Assembly: GCA_032622095.1 (NCBI GenBank)
Contig: CP136063.1
Location: forward strand, 15,417,814-15,481,813
Direction of reading: 5' to 3'
Source: Siphonodentalium dalli
Lineage: Eukaryota > Mollusca > Scaphopoda > Gadilida > Siphonodentaliidae
DNA length: 64,000 nt
In this document: piece after piece, positions 2,087 to 63,620 of the stretch
Layout: every line of letters begins with the position of its first letter
Position numbering within the stretch: position 1 is the first letter of the stretch
The notes under the pieces: generated by a model
The model's database searches: none
Told to the model about the DNA's origin: nothing
Seen by the model: only the letters and a program-made list of their open reading frames with translations
Position numbers and translations under genes: made by a program

Positions 2087-2153
2087 AAAGCGCTGGTCGT
2101 TTCATGGACTGGGTCAGTATGTGATGTACAAACACAAAGAAATGGACCTGCAG
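2087..2153 (+). CDS. VWDE-like: Exon 2: VWD domain, GC-type donor
   Basis: The acceptor is ACTATTAATTTCAG. The first base completes the Gly codon split from exon 1, giving FDGKRWSFHGLGQYV, the usual VWD sequence after TFDG. The exon ends CTGCAG|GCAAGT. This is a near-perfect non-canonical GC donor, and the phase 0 end fits exon 3. Degenerate tandem copies of the end of this exon and its donor follow in the intron. Confidence 0.85.
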
Positions 2154-2770
2154 GCAAGTTATGATAATTACTAGTAATGATATCATCCCGCATAATGTAC
2201 GGCACATTGTGGGACAGTATGTGGTCTACCCACAACGAAGTGAACATGCATGTTAGGCATAACAATGTACTGTACATGCACATACTGCGGCAGTATTTAA
2301 TGCACTGACACATATACATTGACATACATGTAAGTTATGATATTTACTAGTAATTATACCTTCCCGGATAATGTACGGCACATACTGGGACAGTGTGTGG
2401 TCTACAAAAAAAAACGAAATTAACATGCAGGCAGGTTAGGCACATACTGGGACAGTGTGTGGTTTACAAATAACGAAATCAACATGCAGTCATGTTAGAC
2501 ATAACAGTGTACGGCACATACTAGGAAAGTGTGTGGTCTACAAACAACGAAATGAACATGCAGTCAAGTTAGACATAACAATGTACTGTACATACGAAGA
2601 CAGTGTGTAGTCTACAAACAACGAAATGATCATGCAGTCATGTTAGACATAACCATGTATTGTACATACTAGGACAGTATGTGGTCTAAACACAACGAAA
2701 CTAACACGCGGTCATGTTAGACATAACAATGTGCTGTACATACTGGGGCAGTATGTGATGCACAGAAACA
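2154..2770 (+). repeat. Degenerate tandem copies of exon 2 end plus donor
   Basis: Units of about 60-75 bases carry variants of CAGTATGTGGTCTACAAAC, AACGAAATGAACATGCAG and TCAAGTTAGACATAA. They are recognisable as diverged copies of exon 2's last 50 bases and the start of intron 2. About ten copies can be traced. One near 2325 keeps the longer match GTAAGTTATGATATTTACTA, with a GT donor instead of GC. Frames are not preserved, so these are not extra exons. Confidence 0.75.
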
Positions 2771-3667: not shown

Positions 3668-3957
3668 GTGTGACCCGCCATATCAAATCCAGTCGTAAGA
3701 TGGGATTTTGTTTTACCCTGTGCCAATGCATTCTCTTATATATGCGAGTTGACCATAGGTCGTCTCGCATATATAAGAGAATGCATTGGCCTAACACATA
3801 TATAGAAGCATATAGAATATTGTCGTCTGCTCATGTTTGTCTGGGGCTCTGTATGGGTAAAATTATAAAATTGTTAAAGAATACAAGAAAAAATTATTAA
3901 AATTGTAAAAAATTGTTAGGCCAATGCATTCTCTTATATATAGGAGGCGACCTATGG
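3668..3957 (+). mobile_element. Truncated MITE with GTGACCCGCC terminus
   Basis: It begins with the terminal repeat TGACCCGCCATATCAAATCC, followed by the palindromic block around CCAATGCATTCTCTTATATA that is also seen in the copies at 7395 and 62409. The right terminal repeat is missing: homology stops at the second palindrome near 3957. A piece of the same palindrome, ending GAATGCATTGGCACAGGG, reappears at 4697-4755. The element was therefore probably interrupted or deleted. Confidence 0.75.
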
Positions 3958-4793
3958 TGTTGTCATGTCATAGGCAGCGGTATGTTCCCATAGTGTGTGC
4001 ACTGGTCGTGTGCCAATGCTTTGTTTTCCGAAACCGCAACCTTATGCCAAAAACGACAAATGTTAGATAACACATAAATTACTATTCCTTTTTTCCTTTC
4101 GACCCTTGTTGGGACCCACCCCCACCTCCGACATTTGTTCCATTTTCGGCAGGTTTTCTCCGACATTTTTGGACACACACCCTCATCGACCACCAACCAA
4201 CCCCGGCATACGTGCCCGGAAAAAAATCCCCCCCGTTATTATACGGTGTTTTAAGCCAAACTCATTGCAAACACATTCGAAACAATTGTTTTTGAATTGC
4301 GAACAAAATTGTGTGTTGTTCCCATCGACCAACCACCCACCCCGGCATACGTGCCCGGGAATGTTTTTGTCCCCCTGGTTATAAGGGGTCAAAAATACGA
4401 CGAGTATCCGGGGACATAACTTCAAGTGGAGCATGTGGTAACGTTAGCATTACTGGATTGACGCAAACAAAATATTTGCAATTGCTAGTGGAGAGTAATT
4501 GTTTTGTAATTTCTCCGCTGTGCTGCATCCTAGTCTGCCTCCGTTGTGCTCCACCATAGTCTGCCTCCGTTGTGCTCCATCCTAGTCTGCCTCCGTTGTG
4601 CTCTACCCTAGTCTGCCCTCTACCCTAGTCTGCCTTTTGGTTAAATTTGGTTAATTTTATGTTGGTTAACATCGGGCTTTTAGTGCGTACACACCTTAGT
4701 CCAATGTATTATAGTATATATGCGAGGATATATAAGAGAATGCATTGGCACAGGGTTTTCGCAAATTGTCAGGAAGGTCCAGTCATGGAAGAG
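3958..4793. repeat. Short repeats in intron 2
   Basis: Two direct repeats of about 70 bases share CCCCGGCATACGTGCCCG (near 4200 and 4340). A 26-bp unit with CCTAGTCTGCCTCCGTTGTG occurs four times at 4529-4632. A MITE fragment lies at 4697-4755. No coding evidence. Confidence 0.6.
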
Positions 4794-6651: not shown

Positions 6652-6858
6652 GTCAATGCTATGTTCACGGGATGTGGATTCGGTACCGTCAGTTGTAACT
6701 GTGGGCTAGCTATCCGCAATATGGAGGATCTGTTGGTTGTTAATTTCTGTGGAGTTATTGAATACGGCCTACAGACCACGGACATCAACGCCTATATGGA
6801 ACAGCGAGCTTGTAATGAGTTGCATATGTTCGTGGAGAAGACAGGCGATGTACACAAG
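6652..6858 (+). CDS. VWDE-like: Exon 3: VWD domain core
   Basis: The acceptor is TTCTATCATTGCAG and the donor CACAAG|GTAGGT. The exon has 69 codons, phase 0 to 0 (residues 51-119). It contains FGTVSCNCGLAIR and a hydrophobic strand, LLVVNFC, as in the VWDE subclass of VWD domains (SCNCGVAVR type). The final 32 bases and the donor are duplicated immediately downstream. Reading through the donor meets TAG at 6877-6879. Confidence 0.92.
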
Positions 6859-6971
6859 GTAGGTGGCAAACTATACTAGAGTTCAGTCCCCTGTGTCCTG
6901 GTCTGATGTTCACGGAGAAGACAGGCGATGTACACAAGGTAGGTGGCAAACTACACAATAGTTCAGCCCCG
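6827..6971 (+). repeat. 80-bp tandem duplication of exon 3 end and donor
   Basis: The segment 6827-6906 (end of exon 3, donor, 48 intron bases) is repeated from 6907 with few changes, including an intact second GACAGGCGATGTACACAAG|G donor at 6938/6939. Use of the second donor would add 80 bases, shift the frame and include the stop at 6877, so the first donor must be the productive one. Confidence 0.9.
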
Positions 6972-7392: not shown

Positions 7393-7846
7393 TATGTGAC
7401 CCGCCATATCAAATCCAGTCGTAAGTCGGGATTTTTTTTACCCTTTGCCAATGCATTCTCTTATATATGCGAGTCGACCATAGGTCGGCTCGTATATATA
7501 AGAGAATGCATTACCTAACAAGTTTTTTAAATATATGTTTCTTACAATTTTTAGGACATAAAATAAAAAAAACATCCATTACCCTGCAGGGAGCCCCACA
7601 CATATATAGAAGCATATAGAAGAGTGTCGTCTGCTCATGTTTGTCTGGGGCTCTGAATGGGTGAAATTATAAAATTGTTAATGAATACAAGAACAAATTA
7701 TTAAAATTGTAAAAAATTGTTAAGCCAATGCATTCTCGTATATATGCGAGGCGACATATGGTCGACTCGCATATATATGAGAATACATTGGCACAGGGTA
7801 AATTACAGGGTGAATTACGACTGGATTTGATATGGCGGGTCACATA
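7393..7846 (+). mobile_element. Intact MITE, TGTGACCCGCC terminal inverted repeats
   Basis: The left end TGTGACCCGCCATATCAAAT is matched by the inverted right end at 7819-7844, with a TIR of about 29 bases. The flanking dinucleotide is TA on both sides (7393-7394, 7845-7846), compatible with Tc1/mariner-like insertion. Inside, two long palindromes contain CCAATGCATTCTC and its complement around ATATATGCGAG. There is no transposase, so it is non-autonomous. A second full copy, with its core in the opposite orientation, is at 62409-62852. Confidence 0.85.
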
Positions 7847-17589: not shown

Positions 17590-18006
17590 TGTGCAAGTGC
17601 ACCAATCACGTTCTATATCATTTGCACATGCAGCATTCACGTTCTATATCATTTACACATGCGGCAATCGCGTTCTATATCAATTACACACGCAGTAATC
17701 AACGTTCCATATCATTCGTACATGCAGCAATCACGTTATGTACCATTTGTACATGCATCAATCACGTTATGTACAATTTTCACATGCAGTAATCACGTTA
17801 TGTACCATTTGTACACTCAGCAATCGCGTTCTGTACCATGTGTACATGCAGCAACCACGTTCTATACCATTTGTACATGCAGCAACCACGTTCTATACCA
17901 CTTGTATATGCAGCAATCACGTTATGTATCAGTTGTACATGCCGCAATAACATTCTATACCATTTGTACATGCAGCAACCATGTTCTATACCATTTTTAC
18001 ACGCAG
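17590..18006 (+). repeat. 31-bp array of exon 7 acceptor, 14 copies
   Basis: The unit is CCATTTGTACATGCAG|CAAT plus CACGTTCTATA, repeated every 31 bases from 17599. The last copy is the real acceptor ACACGCAG|CAATCAGAC of exon 7. Each unit thus holds the splice acceptor and the first 6-8 exon bases. The exon 7 reading frame stays open upstream to at least 17659. Acceptors three units apart (17821, 17914) are in frame with the exon. Confidence 0.9.
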
Positions 18007-18193
18007 CAATCAGACTCGACGGACTGGGTGGAGGAACAAATGGCGTCTATGAAGTCGGTTTGTATTGACGAAGCCGTAAAGAACACCACTTTACAACAGA
18101 CACAGTCGCCAACTGCAGGGAAATCTATACTAGCGGAGCTAATGGAAGTCATCTGTGATGATGACTGCTCCAACAATGGCGACTGTATTAATG
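18007..18193 (+). CDS. VWDE-like: Exon 7: linker and first half of EGF
   Basis: The exon starts CAATCAGACTCG after the last repeat acceptor and ends TGTATTAATG|GTATTT (62 codons plus one base, residues 340-401). DSTDWVEEQM corresponds to the VWDE segment leading to the EGF module. The end, ICDDDCSNNGDCIN, supplies the first three EGF cysteines. One sequon, NTT. Both ends are bordered by tandem copies of themselves: an array upstream, and about four copies of the end plus donor downstream. Confidence 0.93.
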
Positions 18194-18282
18194 GTATTTA
18201 TACGTTTTATATTAACGGTATTTACAATGGCGATTGTATTAACGTTATTTACAAAGTCAACTGTATTAACGGCATTGTACAC
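18174..18282 (+). repeat. Tandem copies of exon 7 end plus donor, about 4
   Basis: Units of about 23-30 bases carry ACTGTATTAATGGTATTTA and variants TATATTAACGGTATTTAC, GATTGTATTAACGTTATTTA and AACTGTATTAACGGCATTGT. The first contains the true donor; the second keeps a GT donor; the third (TT) and fourth (GC) have lost it. Confidence 0.82.
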
Positions 18283-18703
18283 GTGAAACAGGTCAGACAC
18301 ACCCGCATTCAACTCATGTATTATAGTAAGATTTCTCTATAGTTGTTGTATGCAGATTATGTCGTTGTGTGAATTTGATAATACGAGACATGAGCCAAAC
18401 AACATGCCGTATAGTATCCAAACCTAAGGTAACTGGCGTACTTACGTTGGCACTTCACTTGTCCTGTGTGATGTACCAATGTTTTTACTCTGATTTGACA
18501 AAATCGTGTGGTGTCATTTAAAAATGCTAAATTGTGGGTTGTTACCATTGGAAATGTCAAACTAATTTTATTGTGTGTCCTATTATGGGTCGACAACTTC
18601 CGTATTTTCAAATCGAAATAGTACAGCCTCAACCAAATTGTAGTTCCATAAATTCGGTGAAATGGGACACCCGCCTATTGTGGTGCCTAAACTATTAAAA
18701 CGG
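18283..18703. other. Intron 7 spacer, nothing recognised
   Basis: Unique-looking intronic sequence before the 35-bp array. Confidence 0.5.
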
Positions 18704-20908
18704 TTTTATAATCGACTGGTTACAGGCACATGCGATTGTTTTATAATCGACTGGTTACAGGCACGTGCGATTGTTTTATAATCGACTGGTTACAGGCACA
18801 TGCGATTGTTTTATAATCGACTGGTTACAGGCACATGCGATTGTTTTATAATCGACTGGTTACAGGCACATGCGATTGTTTTATAATCGACTGGTTACAG
18901 GCACATGCGATTGTTTTATAATCGACTGGTTACAGGCACATGCGATTGTTTTATAATCGACTGGTTACAGGCACATGCGATTGTTTTATAATCGACTGGT
19001 TACAGGCACATGCGATTGTTTTATAATCGACTGGTTACAGGCACATGCGATTGTTTTATAATCGACTGGTTACAGGCACATGCGATTGTTTTATAATCGA
19101 CTGATTACAGGTACATGCGATTGTTTTATAATCGACTGGTTACAGGCACATGCGATTGTTTTATAATCGACTGGTTACAGGTACATGCGATTGTTTTATA
19201 ATCGACTGGTTACAGGCACATGCGATTGTTTTATAATCGACTGGTTACAGGTACATGCGATTGTTTTATAATCGACTGGTTACAGGCACATGCGATTGTT
19301 TTATAATCGACTGGTTACAGGCACATGCGATTGTTTTATAATCGACTGGTTACAGGCACATGCGATTGTTTTATAATCGACTGGTTACAGGCACATGCGA
19401 TTGTTTTATAATCGACTGGTTACAGGCACATGCGATTGTTTTATAATCGACTGGTTACAGGCACATGCGATTGTTTTATAATCGACTGGTTACAGGCACA
19501 TGCGATTGTTTTATAATCGACTGGTTACAGGTACATGCGATTGTTTTATAATGGACTGGTTACAGGTACATGCGATTGTTTTATAATGGACTGGTTACAG
19601 GTACATGCGATTGTTTTATAATCGACTGGTTACAGGTACATGCGATTGTTTTATAATGGACTGGTTACAGGTACATGCGATTGTTTTATAATTGACTGGT
19701 TACAGGTACATGCGATTGTTTTATAATGGACTGGTTACAGGTACATGCGATTGTTTTATAATGGACTGGTTACAGGCACATGCGATTGTTTTATAATGGA
19801 CTGGTTACAGGTACATGCGATTGTTTTATAATGGACTGGTTACAGGTACATGCGATTGTTTTATAATGGACTGGTTACAGGTACATGCGATTGTTTTATA
19901 ATCGACTGGTTTCAGGTACATGCGATTGTTTTATAATCGACTGGTTACAGGCACATGCGATTGTTTTATAATCGACTGGTTACAGGCACATGCGATTGTT
20001 TTATAATCGACTGGTTACAGGCACATGCGATTGTTTTATAATCGACTGGTTACAGGCACATGCGATTGTTTTATAATCGACTGGTTACAGGCACATGCGA
20101 TTGTTTTATAATCGACTGGTTACAGGCACATGCGATTGTTTTATAATCGACTGGTTACAGGCACATGCGATTGTTTTATAATCGACTGGTTACAGGCACA
20201 TGCGATTGTTTTATAATTGACTGGTTACAGGTACATGCGATTGTTTTATAATTGACTGGTTACAGGTACATGCGATTGTTTTATAATTGACTGGTTACAG
20301 GTACATGCGATTGTTTTATAATTGACTGGTTACAGGTACATGCGATTGTTTTATAATTGACTGGTTACAGGTACATGCGATTGTTTTATAATTGACTGGT
20401 TACAGGTACATGCGATTGTTTTATAATTGACTGGTTACAGGTACATGCGATTGTTTTATAATTGACTGGTTACAGGTACATGCGATTGTTTTATAATTGA
20501 CTGGTTACAGGTACATGCGATTGTTTTATAATTGACTGGTTACAGGTACATGCGATTGTTTTATAATTGACTGGTTACAGGTACATGCGATTGTTTTATA
20601 ATTGACTGGTTACAGGTACATGCGATTGTTTTATAATCGACTGGTTACAGGTACATGCGATTGTTTTATAATCGACTGGTTACAGGTACATGCGATTGTT
20701 TTATAATTGACTGGTTACAGGTACATGCGATTGTTTTATAATCGACTGGTTACAGGTACATGCGATTGTTTTATAATTGACTGGTTACAGGTACATGCGA
20801 TTGTTTTATAATCGACTGGTTACAGGTACATGCGATTGTTTTATAATCGACTGGTTACAGGTACATGCGATTGTTTTATAATCGACTGGTTACAGGTACA
20901 TGCGATTG
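18704..20908 (+). repeat. 35-bp array of exon 8 acceptor, 63 copies
   Basis: TACAG recurs every 35 bases from 18721 to 20891 with no indel: 62 steps, 63 units. The unit is GACTGGTTACAG|GTACATG plus CGATTGTTTTATAATC; G[C/T]ACATGCGATTG copies the first 13 bases of exon 8 and CTGGTTACAG its acceptor. Variants come in blocks: mainly GCACATG early, AATGGAC at about 19550-19890, AATTGAC at about 20210-20610, and GTACATG as in the exon towards the end. Only the last acceptor (20895/20896) yields the EGF frame. Confidence 0.97.
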
Positions 20909-21083
20909 CTATGACGGTTTTATCGGGACTAACTGCTCCAAGAAAGCAACAATGGCGCCAAACATCACTGGATCCCCCATTGGCGGTAAATGTGACACGA
21001 GTCAACGACCATGTCGACAGGTGACGTTAAAGGCGGATGGGTTGTTCGCAGATGAGATTAAATGTGCTTTTTCGTATTTCCAG
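20896..21083 (+). CDS. VWDE-like: Exon 8: second half of EGF and post-EGF
   Basis: The exon begins after the 63rd acceptor. Its first two bases complete the Gly codon from exon 7, giving CINGTCDCYDGFIGTNC, a complete EGF C-terminal half. The six EGF cysteines are at residues 389, 393, 399, 404, 406 and 415. The rest (CDTSQRPCRQVTLKADGLF) is the conserved block that follows the EGF in VWDE proteins. The donor is TTCCAG|GTGAGT; 62 codons after the split base pair, phase 0 end. One sequon, NIT. Confidence 0.95.
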
Positions 21084-63388: not shown

Positions 63389-63527
63389 GAAGGGCAAAAA
63401 AGAAGGCGAAACGAATAAAGGATACGATGAGAAGATACCAGAACCTTACCCAGATTATGATTGGATTGAAGACGACAACTTATCACTCCAGAGTGAACAA
63501 TATTACCGCCAGGACAGGTTCATGTGA
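63389..63527 (+). CDS. VWDE-like: Exon 12: cytoplasmic tail and stop
   Basis: The acceptor is AATGTGACTTTCAG. One base completes an Arg codon, then 45 codons and TGA at 63525-63527. The tail is basic next to the membrane, then acidic: YDEKIPEPYPDYDWIEDD. YDWI (638-641) fits a YxxPhi sorting motif. The tail ends RQDRFM. The last 36 coding bases are the first unit of a 45-bp tandem repeat that continues past the stop. Confidence 0.93.
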
Positions 63528-63620
63528 TCACTACTTAGTGAAGATAATTGCCACCAGGACAGGTCCATGTGATAACTACATAGTGAACATCATTACCGTC
63601 AGGACAGGCTCATACAATCT
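63492..63620 (+). repeat. 45-bp tandem repeat across the stop codon, 3 copies
   Basis: Units start at 63492, 63537 and 63582 with AGTGAA and share CAGGACAGG followed by TTCATGTGATC-like ends. The second unit keeps ATGTGA; the third has ATACAA instead. The coding end, including the stop, has been duplicated into the 3' untranslated region. Confidence 0.93.

Follow-up and report, generated by a model that had tools for sequence, protein, structure and literature searches.

How can a gene tolerate dozens of copies of its own splice acceptor in front of one exon, and which of them leads to a protein? This question is raised by the window, the 64,000-nucleotide stretch of Siphonodentalium dalli analysed here. 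It contains a tandem array of 35-bp units before exon 8 of a predicted gene with an EGF-like domain (Table 1). From its sequence, we consider that the array is very probably a minisatellite of the "mirage" type, which spans an intron-exon junction. It would be tolerated as splicing still uses the last acceptor.

The array consists of exactly 63 units of 35 bp, with zero indels. The pairwise divergence of the units is 3.2% on average (maximum 8.6%). They belong to eight types, arranged in ordered blocks. The variable sites are unit positions 10 (C, T or G) and 24 (T or C), plus three singletons. CTGGTTACAG is kept intact in 61 of the 63 units, and the exceptions are one CTGATTACAG and one CTGGTTTCAG. 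The exonic 13 nt match exon 8 perfectly in 34 units, including the last. In the exonic part of 28 units GC replaces GT, and one more unit presents GC with a second change. The change to GC gives GGC instead of GGT, a silent third-position substitution that keeps the glycine. The GC units (29 of 63) are mostly in the 5' part of the array, and the last 20 units all carry GT. The AG is present in every unit. In 34 of them it forms AG/GT, so that these units could also act as donors.

This structure is beyond chance, given a TRF score of 4027 and a DNA search of the whole genome (2.23 Gb, 9 contigs). All 62 matches at E≤0.001 in this search lie in the array and exon 8, although the search skips very common words and could miss a diverged copy. 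We also considered ACGGTTTTAT, common to the left flank (18700-18709) and to exon 8 (20914-20923), as a trace of the founding event. It was rejected (p = 0.013, with a misfit to the unit length).

We placed the exons by comparison with a paralog located 250 kb downstream on the same contig. With a VWD domain (PF00094, 28.8 bits against a cut-off of 22.9) and EGF domains, the predicted gene is VWDE-like. We take VWDE to be the fitting name. The first-pass annotation gave 18193 as the exon 7 donor; this is the last exon base, and the GT starts one base later. The phase-1 start of exon 8 is shared by 11 paralogous exons, read by eye (L006-L016, the 11 fetched of 23 matches). This equal position supports the exon 8 boundary. 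The presumed last exons were read by eye near 62-63.5 kb. One of them has a hydrophobic stretch, which is probably membrane-spanning.

The frame remains open after one acceptor alone, the last of the 63. The upstream 62 run into a stop, located 53 nt past the junction for 60 of them, 26 nt for one, and 161 nt for the penultimate. Exons 7 and 8 joined through the last acceptor score 27.6 bits with the Pfam model EGF_Teneurin, above the cut-off of 24.3. Through the penultimate acceptor the score is 19.9 bits, below this cut-off. These results agree with the earlier claims of an array without indels, in which every unit carries the exon 8 acceptor with 13 exonic nt, and of a last AG that is the only productive one.

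Table 1. Features of the window gene discussed in the text (a slash marks the splice junction).
Feature	Position	Strand	Remarks
Exon 2 donor region, duplicate	2108..2757	+	Lag 176, 81%, then 62/74-bp tandem arrays
Exon 3 donor, 80-bp duplication	6826..6956	+	Takes in the final 33 exonic nt
Second array of acceptors, unit of 31 bp (TRF, 13.4 copies)	17598..18012	+	...CATGCAG/CAATCA-like, exon 7 acceptor with 6 nt of exon start
Exon 7, EGF-like domain (first half)	18007..18193	+	Weak donor AATG/GTATTT at 18194, matrix score 2.3
Degenerate 27-bp array over exon 7 donor	18173..18281	+	TRF 69% matches; found by gapped alignment
Junction minisatellite, 63 x 35 bp	18704..20908	+	22 nt of intron end (TTTTATAATCGACTGGTTACAG-like) with the 13 nt that open exon 8
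Exon 8, EGF-like domain (second half) and the segment after it	20896..21083	+	188 nt, last acceptor, donor CAG/GTGAGT
45-bp array, 2.9 copies	63485..63613	+	Begins in last codons and stop of presumed last exon (by eye)

Can the strength of the sites explain the choice of the last acceptor? We scored the acceptors with a weight matrix derived from a sample of 66 acceptors in this genome (sample median 7.9). The 63 acceptors of the array range from 6.1 to 8.3, and the last one has 7.5 (47th percentile). Sixteen of the 62 upstream acceptors outscore it, 15 with 8.3 and one with 8.1. For this reason, intrinsic site strength cannot select the last acceptor. The donors were scored with a second matrix, from 48 distinct donors. 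The exon 8 donor reaches 11.5 (94th percentile), against 2.3 for exon 7. Judging from the sequence, the last acceptor is likely to be used because of its position and through exon definition. Conversely, a 5'-to-3' choice, or an early commitment during transcription, would favour the upstream copies over the last one.

More precisely, we propose that a segment across the 3' splice site of intron 7 was duplicated in tandem. The array would have grown to its present size by slippage or unequal exchange. All the new copies would lie upstream of the real exon and be spliced out as intron while the last acceptor is used. The growth would be nearly neutral, since the copies leave with the intron in that case. 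The last acceptor would most likely be picked through exon definition, with its strong donor and the shortest exon (188 nt). Products of upstream acceptors, with their early stops, would be lost by nonsense-mediated decay.

Several features are those of a mirage. The unit combines an intron end (22 nt) with an exon start (13 nt), in 63 copies. The splice signals are kept, AG in 63 of 63 units and AG/GT in 34. Likewise, junction duplications are present in several genes and at both types of boundary (the window gene, the acceptors of the paralog, and the loci L062, L092 and L013). Intron gain by tandem duplication was rejected, as boundary and phase are equal in the 11 paralogous exons fetched.

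The window gene presents other duplicated junctions. Nine unit acceptors upstream of the real exon 7 site, in the 31-bp array, have scores between 4.7 and 9.4, against 8.8 for the real one. The exon 2 donor duplicate includes 46 exonic nt. The copies of the exon 7 donor gave 19 of 30 matches, under the threshold of the formal test. The gapped test did not support a 12-mer repeat at the acceptor of exon 4 (p = 0.78). With the 45-bp array at the presumed last exon, tandem duplication also affects a third type of boundary in the gene. Two further repeats were observed in the window. A 78-bp satellite with 54, 186 and 264-bp variants, broken by 61-bp repeats, occupies about 34 kb (26905-61417), probably in an intron of the gene. 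Given where the presumed last exons are located, the satellite at 29801-61417 would be intronic. A palindromic dispersed element with CAATGCATTCTCTTATATATGCGAG-like sequence at 3700-3970 and 7700-7800 recurs in introns of the window and of the paralog.

The paralog 250 kb away has its exon 7 and exon 8 acceptors duplicated too, with lags of 40 and 73 bp and with 20 and 9 exonic nt. Unit lengths and breakpoints differ between both genes (31 and 35 bp against 40 and 73 bp), which argues for separate duplication events. Next to the duplicates of the paralog's exon 8 acceptor region there is a foldback element (L007, about 1247-1400), whose inverted arms were recognized by eye. A formal test found a duplicated acceptor in none of ten further paralogous exons (L006, L008-L016). 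The intron position is old and these ten exons are free of the duplicate; thus, the array was added to a pre-existing junction.

To estimate how common these duplications are, we used 127 junctions (66 acceptors and 61 donors) from 68 loci. Two LDLa loci were left out as copies (L030, L034), together with 16 of 18 Sushi loci, because they fall within a single long exon. Of 136 boundaries, 9 were unplaceable and were omitted as well. Near-identical VWDE paralogs (e.g. L009/L010) were retained, and some of the boundaries selected by their score may be misplaced (e.g. L036, L023). With a threshold of 21 of 30 matches, three of the 127 junctions are self-duplicated. They are the acceptor of an LDLa exon in L062 (with 32 exonic nt), the donor of a Sushi exon in L092, and the donor of a VWDE paralog in L013. 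Random intron positions gave 2.4% in the acceptor test and 4.0% in the donor test. With a threshold of 20, the values are 5 of 127 junctions against 3.0% and 4.7%. A genome-wide enrichment of duplications at junctions was rejected, because 3 of 127 is close to the random intron rate. Overall, junctions are neither shielded from duplication nor preferred seeds of it.

The window gene itself enters with 15 junctions, the exon 4 donor being left out. Five of them are self-duplicated, with a control of about 4.2% (P = 3e-4, post hoc and with the 35-bp array counted). Removing this array and the doubtful exon 4 12-mer leaves three hits for a base of 14 junctions (P = 0.019). In the paralog, 2 of 16 junctions are self-duplicated, which is not significant (P = 0.12). 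In a position-weighted control the values were 27% (window), 8% (paralog) and 1.7% (sample), with no clear enrichment in any of them. Long arrays dominate that control, so we used one copy per array; the window result depends on this choice.

Some other loci deserve mention in their own right. L038 (G000:C3:206394530-206402929) has more than 40 Sushi matches in a single uninterrupted frame of 2,818 residues, an unusually long exon. On G000:C4, at about 264.5 and 265.2 Mb (L029/L030 and L033/L034), many LDLa exons appear twice, in opposite orientation and with identical scores. Either a large inverted duplication took place recently, or the assembly contains the region twice. Among the Hox-type loci (11 fetched of 57 matches), there is one whose homeodomain is followed by NLAKLTGP, and others are Lox2/Lox4-like, sequences which we take to be spiralian Hox signatures. 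The mollusc haemocyanin model PF14830 gave no match in this genome, and neither did its controls. L101 and L102 (G000:C7:77673389 and 77720567), in the Hox cluster, are Hox exons with identical translation located 47 kb apart.

The first-pass annotation was right about the acceptor array and the single productive AG. It overlooked the AG/GT in 34 units, as well as the additional junction arrays of the gene. It also regarded the array as not a described gene feature, and this part is not supported. Amphioxus mirages (PMC3087553) and the human ABCA7 VNTR (PMC5954066) are already described. The array belongs, because of them, to a known kind, and it is an unusually large and clean example of a mirage.

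In amphioxus, the name mirages is applied to minisatellite-like duplications of intron-exon boundaries; one consists of an intron 3' end and the 5' part of exon 2 (PMC3087553). They are reported in Adh3, the globins BflGb6 and BflGb9, PGBD5 and TnC, with units from 10 to about 160 bp (PMC3087553, PMC3902484). The PGBD5 case was added by the second of these papers, which cites Adh and TnC. As in the window, the units are tandem and span the boundary, at acceptors and donors, many AG and GT signals are kept, and several genes per genome are affected. RT-PCR suggested regular splicing, and the AG and GT signals could serve as cryptic sites (PMC3087553). In contrast, 63 copies are present here at one acceptor, compared with six in one BflGb6 haplotype and three in the other. 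Amphioxus splicing was assayed by RT-PCR, whereas that of the window array is predicted from its sequence.

The human ABCA7 VNTR is located in intron 18. It is built from 25-bp units with a donor at their start, counts 12 of them or more, and reaches 9,711 bp in one allele (PMC5954066). A single unit is retained at a level of about 2%, and the skipping of exon 19 rises with length. It is likewise a splice-site array in the intron adjoining its exon. However, it is a donor array after an exon and not an acceptor array before one. Its polymorphism and RNA effects were measured, and the window array is known from one assembly. In human duplicated genes, internal tandem repeats with units near 30 bp occur at exon-intron boundaries and change splicing (PMC2812944). 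They average about four copies and yield new introns, whereas no new intron is seen here. The Rogers model of intron gain by AGGT tandem duplication (PMC4974935) also has AG/GT in the unit and extra copies that are spliceable. Nevertheless, it gains an intron, and the one studied here is old, with a phase-1 position shared with paralogs.

Other explanations consider the upstream acceptors functional. Many transcripts might be spliced to them and destroyed by nonsense-mediated decay, so that the array length would tune the protein dose. The ordinary strength of these 62 sites (6.1-8.3 against a median of 7.9), which all lead to stops, is in line with such a regulatory switch, as is the lower expression and greater exon 19 skipping associated with a longer ABCA7 VNTR (PMC5954066). 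We still find it unlikely. Selection for the array is not apparent, as it is confined to the window gene and missing in 10 of 10 further paralogs, the paralog that does bear a duplicate has a different unit, and published mirages are reported to splice normally (PMC3087553). Quite unlikely is a recursive process, in which a wrong junction at a CAG/GTACAT unit (34 of 63) rebuilds a donor that is re-spliced onward to the last acceptor. The donors inside these AG/GT units score 5.8, more than the exon 7 donor (2.3), and the rebuilt donor ATG/GTACAT, with 1.7, is close to it; GT is also kept in the whole 3' block of 20 units. However, these scores reflect donor-like sequence only, the GC units could at best rebuild a weak GC donor, and GT against GC is a silent change. 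We give very little credence to the idea that such a self-correcting ratchet, walking the junction to the last unit, explains the tolerance of dozens of equal acceptors.

A reading as coding sequence concerns the 31-bp array instead. Three of its acceptors, at 17914, 17821 and 17728 (93, 186 and 279 nt upstream), keep the frame and meet no stop. Their scores are 8.8, 7.4 and 6.6, compared with 8.8 at the real exon 7 acceptor. They would add 31 residues to the protein per three units. This coding VNTR seems improbable to us, and it leaves the 35-bp array unexplained. The gene may also be a pseudogene or mostly non-productive. Against a pseudogene, eight exons are open, with 46-79% amino-acid identity to the paralog among the matches listed (the 46% alignment extends into the array). 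Finally, a short array inflated by misassembly is very unlikely. The eight unit types form ordered blocks, which are typical of real minisatellite turnover, and the array, of about 2.2 kb, is small compared with long reads. In addition, the gene has further junction duplicates, at the acceptor of exon 7 and at the donors of exons 2 and 3.

Among the titles and opening abstract lines covered by a literature search no spiralian mirage was found, which does not demonstrate its absence. Mirages, so far described for amphioxus in the literature found, also occur in this genome with spiralian Hox signatures. At this locus, 63 nearly identical acceptors compete naturally, and one of them gives a productive outcome. 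RNA from it could reveal whether distance, transcription order or exon definition decides the choice of acceptor. A large and uniform array like this one is a useful natural experiment on the choice among identical splice sites.
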